A program made the translations under genes and the position numbers. Below are positions 7,937 through 14,669 of a stretch of 16,146 nt of DNA, one piece after another (within the stretch, counting starts at the first letter, position 1; each line of letters opens with the position of its first letter). This DNA comes from Anaerolineae bacterium (GTDB taxonomy: Bacteria > Chloroflexota > Anaerolineae > 4572-78 > J111), in the NCBI GenBank assembly GCA_020433835.1, contig JAGRBY010000101.1, positions 1 through 16,146 of the forward strand, read 5' to 3'. Under the pieces are notes generated by a model, which saw only the letters and a list, made by a program, of their open reading frames with translations, ran no database searches and was not told the DNA's origin.

Positions 7937-8059
7937 TATTCATAACCGGTGCTACCTAAAGCAAGGCAAATCGATTGTCCTCTTTTTCCCCCGGTCTCAC
8001 AAAAGCATCTGCCCCGAGTAGGTCTTCGGCGGCGTTTTTTTAGATTTAAGGAGCCTGTC

Positions 8060-8545
8060 ATGCAATTTAAAGCTGGTGATTACATTGTTCACCCGACTCA
8101 CGGAGTGGGTCATATTGTCGAAATTGAGAAGCGACAGTTTTCTGAGGATGGGGCTGACTTATATTATAAAGTCACGGTTCCTAATTCTACGTTGTGGATA
8201 CCCGTAGAAGCGGAAATTGCCCATGAACTGCGCTTGTCGACCCCCGAAGAAGAGTTAGACCAATACCGTGAGGTTTTGAAGAGTCGCCCCACGTCATTGA
8301 GCCAAAATCATAAGAGCCGATATATTGATTTGACCAATCGCCTGGAACAGGGTTCGTTTCGGGTAATTTGCGAAGTGGTGCGCGATTTAACTGCATGGCG
8401 GCAAAATAAACATTTAGGCACGCGTGAGTCAGAAATTCTCAAGAAGGCGCGCGAGCGGTTGTGTGAAGAGTGGGCTACGGCTGCCGGTATTTCCGTTCAT
8501 CAGGCTACGAAAGAAATTGATAATTTGCTCCAGGTCACTGAGTAA
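8060..8545 (+). CDS. CarD-family RNA polymerase-binding regulator
   Basis: A 161-residue CarD/CdnL-type protein. Members bind the RNA polymerase beta subunit and stabilise open promoter complexes, often at rRNA and growth genes. The N-terminal Tudor-like RNA polymerase interaction domain (about 1-60) shows the family pattern FKAGDYIVHPTHGVGHI and then YYKVTVPNSTLWIPVE. The helical C-terminal DNA-binding domain contains a Trp in the family position (TAWRQNKHLGTRESEIL, before KKARERLCEEW). The start ATG 8060 has AAGGAG six bases upstream; a longer frame from 7949 has no such site and its extension is not CarD-like. It is monocistronic, convergent with the anti-sigma-like gene. The assignment is firm; target promoters are unknown. 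Confidence 0.9.
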   Translation: MQFKAGDYIVHPTHGVGHIVEIEKRQFSEDGADLYYKVTVPNSTLWIPVEAEIAHELRLSTPEEELDQYREVLKSRPTSLSQNHKSRYIDLTNRLEQGSFRVICEVVRDLTAWRQNKHLGTRESEILKKARERLCEEWATAAGISVHQATKEIDNLLQVTE

Positions 8546-8628: not shown

Positions 8629-9972
8629 TTAATCGTCATCGCCCTTATCATCCCCACCGCCCTTGCCGGATTTGTCATTTTTATCATCATCATGGCCGGA
8701 GCTGTTGCTGCCACTGCCGGAATTATCCTCTCGCTTATCGTCATCAGAGCCGCCACCACCGGAACCGGAATTATCATCTGAGCTGTCGTCGCTGCTGCCA
8801 GAGCCGGAGTTGTCGTCATCGCTGCCACTGTTATCGGGGGTAGGTTCAACCGTAACCTCAAATTCATTCACGTCGTCGTCGGCGTTACCCGGCCCTGAGT
8901 TGTCGACATCAGGGACGATAGAGTCATTACTGCCGGAGTTACTGCTGCCCGGCCCCGAGTTATCCTCGTCCGGCTCGTTATCGCTGCCGGAATTGCTGCT
9001 GCCCGGCCCTGAATTATCATCAGCCTCATCACCGTCATCACGGTTGTCGTCATCTGTCGGGGTGGGCAGGGGGGTAGGGATGAATTTGATGATGTCTGAT
9101 GTCGATTGGCCGACGGGTGTCGCTGTGGCGGTTGGTGACGACGTTGCTGTGGCGGTTGGTGACGGCGTTGCTGTGGCGGTTGGCGTTGACGTCGGCGTTG
9201 GAGGCAGCGGCTCGAGCAGTGTGACTGTGCGGGCATTTAGCTCTCCCGCCGCGTTCGTTTCCCCATTGATTTGCACGCGTGCGCCGACAACCAAATTTTC
9301 ACGTTGAGCGGCTTTCGGAGCCAGATTGAGCGTTATGCCGTTGATGGTTATGGTGGTCTCGGTCATGGCCTCGATGCGTCCGGCGATGATAACGTCGGCT
9401 GTTTTATTGCTTTCGGTTAGGCGCTCGACTTCTTCAAGGCGGCGCTGGCTGAAGGTTTCCTCCAGGCGTTGCCGTTGATGGGTATTGGGCGCAAAATTGA
9501 GCTGGATAGTTTCTGACAGCCGCTTGATGGGATACAAAGCTTGACCGGGCAGGCTGCCTTCGGCGGCCAGAACCAATCCCCCACCCATGAGGCTACCCAA
9601 ACCACACACAAAGACCAACAGCGCCGCCGCGATAGCCGTCGATAGGCCGGTGCTAAACAGCAGGCGGCTCAGCGTAAAGCGCGGCCCCGGCGACCGATGG
9701 CCGGCCGGCTGGCCTCGCTGTGTTGGAGCCGGAGTCGCCAGGGTTTCGGCATGCGCCAGCAGGCGATCGAGGCTGGCCTGCGGCGGCGGAACGATCAGTG
9801 CCGGTTTCAAGTCATCGACCTCGGCAGTCAGCTCCAGTATAGGCCGCAGCCAGGCGGCATCCTCGCCGGATTCGGCCAGTACCTCATCCAGCGAAAGCCC
9901 GGCGGCTAAGAGGGCTAAGGCCTCATCGAATTGGTCTGCCTGATTAAATTGAGGCTCGTTGTGCATCGTCAT
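8629..9972 (-). CDS. Membrane-spanning anti-sigma-like protein with acidic surface tail
   Basis: 447 residues, cotranscribed with the ECF sigma gene; the sigma stop TAG directly abuts this ATG, so translation is probably coupled. Order: a cytoplasmic helical part (1-100), which would be the sigma-binding region by analogy; one hydrophobic segment (104-137); a DUF5667-like helical region (about 140-190, QALYPIKRLSETIQL then RRLEEVERL); a small beta domain like DUF5666 (about 195-252, GRIEAMTETTITINGITLNL); a Pro/Thr stalk (255-306) with 8-residue PTATATxS repeats; and a long Asp/Ser/Gly/Asn tail with DNSGPGSSNSGS units. No zinc-binding HxxxCxxC motif of classical ZAS anti-sigma factors is present. 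The tail ends in KSGKGGGDDKGDDD, resembling the end of the lipoprotein at 12309-13334. The anti-sigma role is inferred from position and topology. Confidence 0.75.
   Translation of the reverse strand: MTMHNEPQFNQADQFDEALALLAAGLSLDEVLAESGEDAAWLRPILELTAEVDDLKPALIVPPPQASLDRLLAHAETLATPAPTQRGQPAGHRSPGPRFTLSRLLFSTGLSTAIAAALLVFVCGLGSLMGGGLVLAAEGSLPGQALYPIKRLSETIQLNFAPNTHQRQRLEETFSQRRLEEVERLTESNKTADVIIAGRIEAMTETTITINGITLNLAPKAAQRENLVVGARVQINGETNAAGELNARTVTLLEPLPPTPTSTPTATATPSPTATATSSPTATATPVGQSTSDIIKFIPTPLPTPTDDDNRDDGDEADDNSGPGSSNSGSDNEPDEDNSGPGSSNSGSNDSIVPDVDNSGPGNADDDVNEFEVTVEPTPDNSGSDDDNSGSGSSDDSSDDNSGSGGGGSDDDKREDNSGSGSNSSGHDDDKNDKSGKGGGDDKGDDD
9122..9193 (-). repeat. Three 24-bp tandem units coding the Pro/Thr stalk
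   Basis: The units are 24 bp long, the last diverging near its end, and encode PTATATxS on the minus strand. They lie between the DUF5666-like domain and the acidic tail of the anti-sigma-like protein. Confidence 0.75.
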
Positions 9973-10530
9973 CTAAACCACATCTTCTTCCACAGAGCGA
10001 GACTGCATCAATTCGGCCAGCGCTCGCATCGCTCTAAATTGCAGTCCCTTGATCGCCCCCGGCGTTTTGTCGAGCGCATGGGCTACGCTTTGAATATCCA
10101 AACCCTCCATAAATCGCAATACGATAACCTCGCGCTGCTCATCGGTTAGTTGTTGAATGGCTTCGACCAGTTCACGGTTGCGTTCGCTTTGAATAGCCTG
10201 CTGTAGGGGATTCATATGCTCGGCTGAGGTGATCTGTTCATCAAGCACCACTTCGGGCATGCGTTCGCGCTGGCGGTAGTGATCGGCCACCACGTTGCGA
10301 GCAATGCCCATAATCCAGCCCTGCGGCGAATCACGCCAGGCCGAACCGCGACGCAGCGCCTCCAGAGCACGCACGAAAATTTCGCCGCACAGATCTTCGA
10401 CCGTTCGCGCATCGCCAACTTTGAACTGCACGTAGCGGGCCACCATCGCGTAAAAGCGTTGGTGGAATTCGCGCAGCCCGTCGGGGTTAAGTTGTTTGGC
10501 TTTTTCCAGCAAAGTGTGATCGTTGGTCAT
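9973..10530 (-). CDS. ECF (sigma-70 family) RNA polymerase sigma factor
   Basis: A 185-residue group 4 sigma factor with only regions 2 and 4. Region 2 spans about residues 18-85: FHQRFYAMVARYVQFKVGD, then VEDLCGEIFVRALEAL (the DL.qevF core-binding motif), then WIMGIARNVVADHYR (region 2.4, -10 recognition). Region 4 spans about 120-175: LVEAIQQLTDEQREVIVLRF, then SVAHALDKTPGAIKGLQFRAMRAL (helix-turn-helix for -35). I chose ATG 10530 rather than TTG 10560 because the latter lies inside the promoter-like element; no Shine-Dalgarno is visible and the predicted mRNA leader is only a few bases. It heads an operon with the anti-sigma-like gene and is divergent from the GT-C gene. The family call is very firm; the exact ECF group is not determined. 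Confidence 0.92.
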   Translation of the reverse strand: MTNDHTLLEKAKQLNPDGLREFHQRFYAMVARYVQFKVGDARTVEDLCGEIFVRALEALRRGSAWRDSPQGWIMGIARNVVADHYRQRERMPEVVLDEQITSAEHMNPLQQAIQSERNRELVEAIQQLTDEQREVIVLRFMEGLDIQSVAHALDKTPGAIKGLQFRAMRALAELMQSRSVEEDVV

Positions 10531-10543
10531 CGTTAGGGTACTT

Positions 10544-10568
10544 GTCGCAAAACGGCCCAAAAAGTTAC
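10544..10568 (-). promoter_or_regulatory. Candidate ECF promoter for the sigma/anti-sigma operon
   Basis: On the minus strand -35 GTAAC (10568-10564), a 16-base spacer and -10 CGAC (10547-10544) match the general ECF promoter layout with its AAC-containing -35. The start would be near 10537, leaving a leader of under ten bases before ATG 10530. Confidence 0.6.
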
Positions 10569-10614
10569 GCGCTTTGGCAAAATTTGTTGAAAATAATCAA
10601 TTTTCAAAATTCGC

Positions 10615-10639
10615 GTAACTTTTTGAAAAGTTCTGCGAC
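10615..10639 (+). promoter_or_regulatory. Candidate ECF promoter for the GT-C/lipoprotein operon
   Basis: -35 GTAAC (10615-10619), 16 bases, -10 CGAC (10636-10639). It has the same boxes and spacing as the leftward copy, while most bases in the middle of the spacer differ. The predicted start is near 10647, about 65 bases before ATG 10712. Confidence 0.6.
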
Positions 10640-10711
10640 AGTAATGGTCGAGAATTGTGGCCGCAAATTTCTCACCCTTGAGTGTAACGATGTTTTCAAA
10701 AGGAGCAATCT

Positions 10712-12265
10712 ATGAGGAATATTTTGACAGTACCATCCCGTGAAGGTCTGCACGTGATGGGCCGGATCGCCGCCGTGCAGCAGGCTGTGCGGCAGCGACT
10801 GCGGTTCAACCGATCGACGCTACTGATGGGAGCGGTGTTATGGAGTATATTTGTGGTCGGGCTGGCGTTTATTCAGTTCAGTACGCCCAATTTGGCCGGC
10901 AATGACGGCTACTACCACATTAAATTAGCCCAGGTGATGGGCGAGGTGGGTTTGCGCCCTGCCTTTCCCTGGCTGCCACTGACGGTGCTCAATGCGGATC
11001 GTTACGTTGATCATCATTGGCTGTATCACGTGCTGCTTATCCCTTTTACGTTTGGCGATTTGCGGCTGGGGGCTAAATGGGCCAGTGTTGTGCTGCCGTC
11101 GCTGGCGTTTGTGGCGGGCTGGTGGCTGCTGCGCGGGCAGCGCGTGCCGTTCGCTGCGCTGTGGGCGCTGGGCTTTTTAGCCGTCTCTGAGGCGTTTTTA
11201 TATCGCATGAGTATGCCGAGGGCGCAGGCGGCGTCGCTGCTGTTTTTGCTGCTGGCGCTGCACTGCATGCTGGCCGGACATGAGCGCTGGCTGCTGCCGT
11301 TGGGGTGGCTGTACGTTTGGCTTTATAACGCTTTTCCACTGCTGCTGGTTGTGGTTGGGGCGCACGTGGTGGCGCGTTGGCTGCTGGCCGGCCGTCTGGA
11401 TCTCAAGCCGGTGCTGTATGCCGGGGGTGGGCTGGCTTTAGGTTTGGTTATCAATCCTTATTTTCCTGATAATTTGGTCTTTATCTATCATCACCTTTCG
11501 CCCAAACTGACCGAAGCGACGGCCACCAGCGTTGGCCGCGAGTGGTATCCCTACCAGACCTGGACGCTGGTCGAAAATTCCGGGCTGGCGCTGATCGTTT
11601 TTGTGCTGGGTGGGTTGGCCCTGGGGCTTTCCACACGCCGGATGGAGGCGGATACCGGCACGCTCTTTTTCCTGGCAGTGCTGTTTGGGGCGATGCTCTT
11701 TAAGTCGCGGCGGTTTGTTGAGTACTATCCCGCCTTTGCCCTGCTTTTCTGCGCGTTGGCCTGGCGACCCTTAATCGAAGCATGGCGCACCCGGCCCGGT
11801 ATCGCCGCTAAGAGCATTCCGGCTATCCTGGCCTTGGTGCTGCTGCCGTCGATTTTCTTTACGCTGCAAAAGGCGCAGGTAAGTCTGCAAAGCGCCTCAT
11901 CATACACTCAGTACGCCGACGCCTCGGCCTGGCTCGAAGAGCACACGCCCGCAGGCAGCCGTCTTTTCCAAACCGATTGGGATGATTTCACACGTCTCTT
12001 TTTCTACAACACCCACAACACCTATACCCTGGGGCTTGATCCAACCTATATGCAGCGTTACGATCCGCAATTGTATGACACCTGGGTTGATATCACCCAG
12101 GGGCGCGTCGAGCAGCCGTCGCAAACGATTACGGAGCTTTTCGGCGCAACGTATGCCCTGACCGATCTCAACCATACCCAATTCATCAAACAGGCTGAGG
12201 CCGATCCCCATATGCAGGAGGTTTATCGCGATGACGATGCCGCTATTTTTGAAATTGTTTACTAA
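10712..12265 (+). CDS. GT-C/STT3-like multi-pass membrane protein
   Basis: 517 residues with about ten or more membrane helices from residue 36 to about 400 and a soluble C-terminal domain of roughly 120 residues. The first external loop has GNDGYYHIKLAQV (63-75), which resembles the DxxYYH-type acidic motif of STT3/AglB/PglB oligosaccharyltransferases and other GT-C enzymes; a second acidic loop is VDHHWLYH (99-106). The C-terminal part begins ASAWLEEHTPAGSRLFQTDWDD, a pattern seen in GT-C-like membrane proteins. Likely role: transfer of a lipid-linked sugar outside the membrane, but I see no complete WWDxG motif, so this is a family-level guess. The start ATG 10712 has AAAAGGAG seven bases upstream. 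It is followed after 43 bases by the lipoprotein gene, so the two probably form an operon under the rightward ECF-type promoter. Confidence 0.65.
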   Translation: MRNILTVPSREGLHVMGRIAAVQQAVRQRLRFNRSTLLMGAVLWSIFVVGLAFIQFSTPNLAGNDGYYHIKLAQVMGEVGLRPAFPWLPLTVLNADRYVDHHWLYHVLLIPFTFGDLRLGAKWASVVLPSLAFVAGWWLLRGQRVPFAALWALGFLAVSEAFLYRMSMPRAQAASLLFLLLALHCMLAGHERWLLPLGWLYVWLYNAFPLLLVVVGAHVVARWLLAGRLDLKPVLYAGGGLALGLVINPYFPDNLVFIYHHLSPKLTEATATSVGREWYPYQTWTLVENSGLALIVFVLGGLALGLSTRRMEADTGTLFFLAVLFGAMLFKSRRFVEYYPAFALLFCALAWRPLIEAWRTRPGIAAKSIPAILALVLLPSIFFTLQKAQVSLQSASSYTQYADASAWLEEHTPAGSRLFQTDWDDFTRLFFYNTHNTYTLGLDPTYMQRYDPQLYDTWVDITQGRVEQPSQTITELFGATYALTDLNHTQFIKQAEADPHMQEVYRDDDAAIFEIVY

Positions 12266-12308
12266 TCACCTATCAAAACTATCACGTATGAATCTGAAGG
12301 AGAAAATC

Positions 12309-13334
<1,026 letters not shown>

Positions 13335-13493: not shown

Positions 13494-14633
13494 CTAAAAA
13501 CCCGGCAGGCTGAGTTGAAAATCCGGTCTTTGGCCGGCCAGAAGCATAAAGGGCGCAGCTCGGTCAACTTGGACACCCAGTTTTCCGAGCTGCTGCCTAT
13601 TGCGCAGCATGCCGGTTTGCCGGGCCTGGATAATCGCCTCAGCAGTTTTGGGGCCGATGCCGGGAATACGCAGCAGCTCCGAGCGGGTCGCTCGGTTGAT
13701 TTCCAACGGCTGGTGGCGCAAATGGGCTTCGGCCCAGAGTAGTTTTGGATCACGGCTGAGGCTGAGATTGCCTTGGGTATCAAAAGGTAGCTCTTCAATC
13801 GTAAAATTATAGAAGCGCAGCAGCCAGTCGGCCTGGTAAAGCCGATGTTCGCGTAGTGGGTCGGTTTTACTTTTGTTTTCAAATGTTGTATTGCGGATAG
13901 GGGAAAAGGCAGAATAATAAGCCCGCGCCAAACCGGCCTCACGGTAAAGTTTGTCTGCCGTCACCAACAGCTCTTGGTCAGATTCGTTGGCCGGGCCGAC
14001 TACAAATTGGGTGGTTACGCTGGGAGGTCTTATCCACGGGGCGAGGGTAGATCGTCGCTGGTGAACCCAGTACATCGGTGACAGTAACTCGCGGGTAAAA
14101 TCTTTTTTGGGCGCTAATAGGGGCAGGCGCTCCTCGTTAGCGCCTTCCAGGTTGATCGACAGCCGGTCGGCCAGTCGCATGGCCTGCTCTATTTGAGAAT
14201 TCTCGGCTCCGGGCATAATTTTGAGGTGGATGTAGCCGCCGTACTGGTGTTTGCGGCGAATGATATCGACCGTATCCAGCATTTTATCCATCGCTTTAAC
14301 TCCACCGCCGATAATGCCGCTGCTGAGGAATAAGCCATCCACCAGTTTTTTCTGCTGCATCTGATCAAACGCCGAAGCCAGTTCCTCCGGCTTGAGCGTG
14401 ACACGTTGGTAGTTGCGACCGGCCTGAAAGGGGCAGTAGTGGCAGTTTCGCTCGCAGGCGCTGGTTTGCATAGTGCGCATTACCGGGATTCTGCCGCGTT
14501 GGGGATGGGTGACCGTTACCCGGCTGTGTTCGATGAACTGCGCTTTGCGCTCTTCGCGCGATAGTCGCGGTGGTCCTTCACAATCGAGCACCGCTGCTTT
14601 TTCAAGATTAGCCACTTTTTGATGAATATCCAT
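13494..14633 (-). CDS. Radical SAM protein with HhH domain, putative DNA modification/repair
   Basis: 379 residues. The [4Fe-4S] cluster motif is CxxxCxxC at Cys60, Cys64, Cys67 (SACERNCHYCPFQ). The barrel continues with FLSSGIIGGG (102-111) and LSINLEGANEERL (158-170). The C-terminal 311-365 region is a helix-hairpin-helix DNA-binding module: LEINRATRSELLRIPGIGPKTAEAI. This order matches the family annotated as putative DNA modification/repair radical SAM protein (TIGR03916). That family is often next to a DUF4130 partner (TIGR03915), which is not in this window. The chemical reaction is not known to me. The start is ATG 14633; a TTG at 14669 in frame is the first base of the -35 box, so it is rejected. 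The promoter position makes the mRNA leaderless. Confidence 0.88.
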   Translation of the reverse strand: MDIHQKVANLEKAAVLDCEGPPRLSREERKAQFIEHSRVTVTHPQRGRIPVMRTMQTSACERNCHYCPFQAGRNYQRVTLKPEELASAFDQMQQKKLVDGLFLSSGIIGGGVKAMDKMLDTVDIIRRKHQYGGYIHLKIMPGAENSQIEQAMRLADRLSINLEGANEERLPLLAPKKDFTRELLSPMYWVHQRRSTLAPWIRPPSVTTQFVVGPANESDQELLVTADKLYREAGLARAYYSAFSPIRNTTFENKSKTDPLREHRLYQADWLLRFYNFTIEELPFDTQGNLSLSRDPKLLWAEAHLRHQPLEINRATRSELLRIPGIGPKTAEAIIQARQTGMLRNRQQLGKLGVQVDRAAPFMLLAGQRPDFQLSLPGF

Positions 14634-14640
14634 AGCGGAT

Positions 14641-14669
14641 ATTATACGAACAAATGTTTTGATCGTCAA
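14641..14669 (-). promoter_or_regulatory. Near-consensus promoter giving a leaderless radical SAM mRNA
   Basis: On the minus strand -35 TTGACG (14669-14664), a 17-base spacer and -10 TATAAT (14646-14641). The expected start is at about 14634, the base before the ATG (14633). There is no ribosome binding site. Confidence 0.8.

Follow-up and report, generated by a model that had tools for sequence, protein, structure and literature searches.

Between two divergent operons of an Anaerolineae bacterium lies an inverted repeat, which raises the question of whether two promoters face each other there, whether a regulator binds the symmetric sequence, or whether pairing between its arms is what maintains the repeat, and which genes would be controlled in each case. 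We addressed this in a stretch of 16,146 bases (hereafter the window) and in related genomes. Leftward of the repeat lies the gene for a 185-aa ECF sigma factor (9973-10530, minus strand), which by Pfam consists of regions 2 and 4 only (Sigma70_r2 and r4) and stops after region 4. It scored 149.4 bits against TIGR02952 (BldN family), under the cut-off of 206.45, and is not assigned to that family. We favour the ATG at 10530 as its start, as do the relatives, rather than the TTG of the open reading frame list, which is located within one of the elements described below. Directly behind the sigma gene follows the gene for a 447-aa protein (8629-9972, minus strand) with a DUF5667 domain (43.2 bits), a DUF5666 domain (25.3 bits, slightly under the cut-off of 27) and a D-, S-, G- and N-rich outer tail. 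This protein is probably a membrane anti-sigma factor, with a predicted role and topology; DUF5667 and DUF5666 were its sole matches at E up to 5, and the RsgI N-terminal domain was not found among them.

Rightward of the repeat lie the genes for a 517-aa GT-C membrane protein with a modelled STT3 oligosaccharyltransferase fold (10712-12265, plus strand; AAGGAG at 10700-10705) and for an Asn/Asp-rich lipoprotein (12309-13334, plus strand), assigned by its sequence, LTGC lipobox and composition, with an SG- and DH-rich tail. The lipoprotein gene has its own ribosome-binding site (GAAGGAG, 12296-12302), the open reading frame list giving a start at 12231, and a Pfam search with the window lipoprotein returned no match. 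Two flanking genes also adjoin these operons in the nearest relative: a CarD-type transcription factor gene near the anti-sigma gene (7949-8545, plus strand) and a gene for a radical SAM and helix-hairpin-helix protein (13494-14669, minus strand), which is near TIGR03916 (282 bits, under the cut-off of 343.5).

The pattern CGCGTAACTTTTTG-N9-GCGACA matches the window exactly twice, with no third match. The target-side copy, a predicted ECF promoter element, occupies 10612-10640 on the plus strand (GTAAC 10615-10619, CGAC 10636-10639) and ends 71 bases upstream of the GT-C ATG (10712), and its sigma-side counterpart occupies 10543-10571 on the minus strand (GTAAC 10568-10564, CGAC 10547-10544) and ends 12 bases upstream of the sigma ATG (10530). 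The two copies share their outer 14 and 6 bases and differ at five of the nine spacer bases, and the distance from GTAAC to CGAC is 16 bases in both. These exact matches confirm the original prediction of two facing copies of one element, with identical outer blocks, equal spacing and mostly different spacer bases, one directed at the sigma gene and the other at the GT-C gene. Using a matrix built from other genomes, with both the window and its nearest relative (G001) excluded from training, the plus copy scored 31.5 bits and the minus copy 29.4, against 9.8 for the next position in the window, which places the pair beyond chance. Scanning 9900-10800 for the sigma-70 consensus returned no site, a result that is hardly informative since shuffled sequences average 0.7.

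A search of genome contigs with the sigma factor returned four loci, one 91% identical (L001, in G001) and three 62-66% identical (L002-L004). Surveying 25 genomes of the order of G001, we found a close sigma factor (52-91% identical) in eight (G001-G004, G012, G016, G019 and G020); 15 others had matches of at most 38% only, and two had none at E up to 1e-20. Together with the window, this gives nine close sigma loci, from which nine sigma-side and nine target-side elements were compiled, partly by eye. Comparison of the intergenic regions shows that the elements recur: a sigma-side element lies 12-22 bases upstream of the ATG at all nine sigma loci (weak in G016), and a target-side element precedes eight of 12 GT-C starts inspected across the window and the eight genomes. 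The four starts lacking one, in G002 (L042), G004 (L043), G003 (L047) and G016 (L045), have best matrix scores of 0.0, 6.7, 5.0 and 12.6 bits, respectively, the last falling within a GT-C gene fragment. G016 has the close sigma factor, L045 is the only GT-C start found in it, and its GT-C fragments are spread over two contigs.

The arrangement of the copies differs from genome to genome. The gap between the facing 28-base elements is 42 bases in the window and in G001, to which this value is limited, and 138, 280, 130, 123 and 296/416 bases elsewhere. The GT-C gene and its element are on a different contig from the sigma gene in G004, and G020 has a single sigma-side copy and two tandem target-side copies. 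The variable gap, the tandem copies and the unlinked copies in G004 together argue for two independent ECF-type promoters and not for a hairpin; the inverted repeat is the mere appearance of two equal promoters placed face to face. A repeat search reports the window copies as a single inverted repeat with 42-nt arms, 76% complementary and 14 nt apart, as might befit a repeat kept for its own pairing, be it a hairpin, a cruciform or a two-way terminator. However, such a role is exceedingly improbable, given that no more than 2-7 of the 11 spacer positions match between facing copies across loci, that the gaps vary and the G004 copies are unlinked, and that a terminator scan of 9900-10800 found two sites, none of them at the repeat. 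The symmetry of the arms in the window would equally suit a dimeric regulator that binds there and controls both operons, but gaps of 42-416 bases, tandem copies and copies on separate contigs make this very unlikely, and every copy reads as a -35 and a -10 box at promoter spacing. On the basis of the gap variation and the tandem and unlinked copies, we rejected the hairpin, terminator and dimer-operator readings. The earlier proposal that selection acts on the boxes rather than on a hairpin was likewise upheld: pairing kept with boxes lost was looked for in the relatives and the opposite was found, the boxes being retained and the pairing not.

We consider it very probable that the region 10543-10640 contains two independent, divergent ECF promoters, through which the sigma factor would drive its own operon and that of the GT-C protein and lipoprotein. 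The consensus we propose for these promoters is GCGTAACYTTTT, about ten bases, and GCGACA. In the suggested mechanism, which is modelled on known ECF systems (PMC8103513), the membrane anti-sigma factor holds the neighbouring sigma factor until an outside signal, speculatively read via the anti-sigma tail, frees it and both promoters fire. Leftward, the freed sigma factor would transcribe its own sigma/anti-sigma operon, a positive feedback with built-in inhibition, and rightward it would transcribe the operon of the STT3-fold GT-C protein and the lipoprotein.

The element is largely confined to these genes. With leave-one-genome-out matrices (the window and G001 being omitted as a pair), each of the 18 elements outscored any non-element position of the 10 scanned stretches (lowest element 11.4, in G016; highest other position 10.8). 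A search of the eight related genomes (about 56 Mb) for GCGTAACYTTT-N11-GCGACA with at most one mismatch found 12 places, 11 of them at sigma or GT-C genes; the lone one-mismatch copy away from module genes is at G003:C18:36547. Two-mismatch places number 20 in the eight genomes, the G003 sigma-side element among them. We rejected a wide regulon at two mismatches, since these 20 places compare with 16 for a reversed-pattern control (up to two mismatches), which is near background.

Further related sigma factors, 27-38% identical, are present in the same order genomes, and one of these could read the elements as ECF promoters, alone or in addition to the neighbouring sigma factor. Consistent with this, the sigma-side -35 boxes are variable, and at four loci elsewhere in the class (L118, L120, L123 and L124) a site precedes a GT-C or lipoprotein gene with no related sigma gene found in the stretch read, which for L120 and L124 finishes at a contig end; at L119 a different sigma-like open reading frame lies downstream (by eye). 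Yet we regard control by such a relative as improbable: the close sigma factor and the GT-C protein co-occur in an identical set of eight of the 25 order genomes, and 21 of 22 loci of more distant sigma factors have a best score below 10 bits. The exception, L020 (G007:C311, about 1360-1412), has a 15.9-bit site directly upstream of a related sigma gene; the CCGTATCTTTTT half of this site again has an inverted counterpart, lying a few bases off.

Target and sigma sides are not equally conserved. TAAC is present in all nine target-side elements as opposed to four of the nine sigma-side ones (window, G001, G019 and G020), so that conservation is stronger for target control than for self-control. 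The remaining five sigma-side elements have GCC (G002, G004 and G012), GAC (G003) or GTC (G016) in place of AAC and retain the T-run; the -10 box is CGAC in 17 of the 18 elements, the sigma-side element of G016 having CCAC. Self-control thus appears less certain than target control, and at the loci lacking AAC either the sigma factor tolerates a weaker box of its own or self-control has changed. Of the original prediction that the sigma factor drives both its own and the divergent operon, shared control is retained as the best reading, while the self-control part finds its box at four of nine loci only. The elements, their conservation, their position and their rarity are established by genome comparison; from these we infer recognition by the neighbouring sigma factor and the likely start sites.

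The promoter itself is of a common ECF type, in a phylum that has been little studied. According to PMC8103513, autoregulated ECF (group IV) systems have AAC in the -35 box and CGT as the hallmark of the -10 box. The window system resembles these as described there in the AAC of the -35 box, the 16-base spacing, a sigma factor with regions 2 and 4 only, a probable anti-sigma gene directly behind and a promoter upstream of its own gene. It differs in having CGAC rather than CGT at -10 and in the sigma-side -35 box without AAC at five of nine loci. ECF41, as presented in PMC3426412, similarly has a single motif (TGTCACA-n16-CGTC) in front of both the sigma gene and an adjacent target, and very few targets; however, its motif and targets are different from those found here, and it is regulated via a fused C-terminal extension.

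A structural model of the GT-C protein was built from a 45-sequence alignment (mean pLDDT 85.3, pTM 0.86). The model has the STT3 oligosaccharyltransferase fold: the best Foldseek match was 6s7o_A (E 1e-9, TM 0.71 by query length), and each of the 28 PDB matches at E up to 0.001 is a GT-C enzyme or a complex containing one, with human and yeast oligosaccharyltransferase STT3 at the head of the list and AglB, DPY19, ArnT and PglB lower. Beyond this shared fold the protein differs from STT3, AglB and PglB in its length of 517 aa, its 10-16% identity in the structural matches, its lack of a Pfam match and the depletion of N-X-S/T in five lipoproteins. Searching the PDB by sequence or with the 45-member profile gave nothing meaningful, and the match to TIGR04154 was weak (19.4 bits against a cut-off of 450). 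STT3-type oligosaccharyltransferases typically carry a WWDYG motif; D422-W-D-D-F426 of the GT-C protein, a possible counterpart, is invariant in the 45 aligned sequences. Fold and setting suggest that the protein moves a lipid-carried sugar onto an acceptor outside the membrane. Counts in the five lipoproteins did not support N-linked modification at N-X-S/T: there are 4, 3, 2, 3 and 1 such sites against shuffle means of 11.8, 15.4, 13.4, 13.9 and 8.2, a depletion that arises partly because Asn alternates.

The GT-C protein was found in 56 of 396 genomes sampled from the class, eight of which are the order genomes with the close sigma factor, and we examined 15 distant loci, one each from 15 of the remaining 48 genomes. 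A related sigma gene (32-37% identical) lies downstream of the GT-C gene on the same strand at six of them (L111, L112, L114-L117). Five of the 15 have lipoprotein, GT-C, sigma and anti-sigma genes, in this order, in a single operon, and the order at L115 is GT-C, lipoprotein, sigma and putative anti-sigma. The anti-sigma factors of L112 and L114 have DUF5667 by Pfam, and those of L111, L116 and L117 were assigned via similarity to the window protein. With a matrix trained solely on the 18 sites of the order, and a 6-bit line set after the scores were known, sites of at least 6 bits lie upstream of four of 15 GT-C genes and five of seven lipoprotein genes (9/22 combined), and upstream of none of six sigma genes, none of five anti-sigma genes and 2/107 other genes. 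One of these two others is a lipoprotein-like gene at L124, cut by the contig end, and the second, at L119 (12264-13004, reversed), encodes a subtilisin-like protein (by eye) and is preceded, at a distance of about 50 bases, by a 17.5-bit site; the GT-C gene of L119, in the same stretch, has its own site. Sites are thus present at 10 of 15 loci, with L123 adding a 14.9-bit site within an early-called frame, and they mostly start with CCG and finish with CGACT. Four loci have no site, namely L113, L121 and L122, and L125, which begins at a contig end. The stretches viewed at L113, L121, L122 and L119 contain no lipoprotein gene.

The close sigma factor itself was not found in 12 class genomes searched (best 40%), and a phylum search at E up to 1e-45 found it in one genome of a thin sample of 400. 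Within the 12 class genomes the motif at one mismatch occurs at five places, compared with one for the control, none at GT-C loci. One of these elements (L138; G105:C11, 1319-1346) lies about 125 bases before the gene for a 1155-aa protein with many CxxCH motifs and an Asp-rich C-terminal tail, by eye a multihaem cytochrome. Another copy (L137; G185:C12, 1826-1853) lies 45 bases before a gene whose small product looks secreted and has an Asp-rich end, in a genome whose GT-C locus is itself without a site.

The anti-sigma factor and the lipoprotein both have long tails rich in N, D, S and G, with the C-termini DDDKNDKSGKGGGDDKGDDD (anti-sigma factor) and DDDKSGKGGKDDGGKKSGKGGSKKK (lipoprotein) in the window, and both tails of L112 have N-T and N-G-N-E repeats. 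We compared the two at 12 loci (window, G001-G004, G020, L111, L112 and L114-L117; the G004 pair is unlinked), excluding G012 (contig end), G016 (no partner), G019 (runs of N) as well as those class loci that have no linked anti-sigma gene. Composition similarity over the last 60 residues was 0.894 within genomes versus 0.722 between genomes; this value was reached by none of 20,000 permutations, and by 1 in 10,000 when shuffling inside two groups only, in a comparison that ignores kinship (it is not tree-aware) and covers only these two kinds of tail. A dipeptide measure gave 0.0002 (0.004 within groups), and the nine loci left after removing one of each close pair gave within-group values of 0.0005 to 0.0033. 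The own-genome partner is often not the top match (ranks 1 to 9). Tails from the same genome are partly similar at the DNA level, and shared composition or gene conversion could lie behind the match. In the same genomes, the anti-sigma factors of four related systems (L034-L037) lack a comparable tail. DUF5666 is an uncommon domain in these genomes: in G137, G105, G402 and G145 all seven matches (one sub-cut-off) fall within the module, G105 and G145 having the domain in both lipoprotein and anti-sigma factor, G137 and G402 in the lipoprotein alone. Elsewhere, G002 has one match (the anti-sigma factor) and G003 three outside the module, and none is present in the lipoprotein of the window, of G002 or of G003.

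The resemblance of the anti-sigma tail to the lipoprotein tail of its own genome hints at self-sensing. We tentatively raise the possibility, which we hold to be doubtful, that the anti-sigma factor mimics the tail of the sigma-controlled lipoprotein and so reports the fate of that lipoprotein outside the cell, output being measured by resemblance; in some lineages the anti-sigma factor would share the DUF5666 domain with the lipoprotein too. What is sensed might be, for example, that the module's STT3-fold enzyme modifies the tail, or that the tail is bound or cut. As long as this handling proceeds normally, the anti-sigma factor would keep hold of the sigma factor; its failure would set the sigma factor free, yielding more enzyme, lipoprotein and inhibitor. 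If the tail match does reflect sensing, the module would offer an example, open to direct testing, of an anti-sigma factor monitoring the controlled product by likeness. A comparable logic, and logic only, is found in SigI/RsgI of Clostridium thermocellum, where, according to PMC4711584, the sigma factor is autoregulated and the outer part of the anti-sigma factor resembles portions of the controlled surface proteins, GH10 for example occurring on both RsgI6 and the target xylanases. The sigma and anti-sigma families described there are different, and RsgI has folded binding modules rather than a low-complexity tail.

The module with an STT3-fold protein and a tail-matched anti-sigma factor is a new variation on known ECF systems. 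In the open-licence literature searched, we found no paper on DUF5667 and nothing on a sigma factor with an oligosaccharyltransferase in Chloroflexi. An ECF sigma clade of uncultured Anaerolineae thereby gains a predicted promoter and a small target set, and DUF5667, DUF5666 and a Pfam-unmatched STT3-fold family are joined in one putatively regulated surface module, which recurs, rearranged, in further genomes of the class. A general rule that a tailed DUF5667 anti-sigma factor stands beside a tail-matched neighbour was rejected, as none of six other loci inspected matched. DUF5667-type anti-sigma candidates with other low-complexity tails, including GQ and SG repeats, are encoded at L022, L024, L025, L026, L032 and L038.
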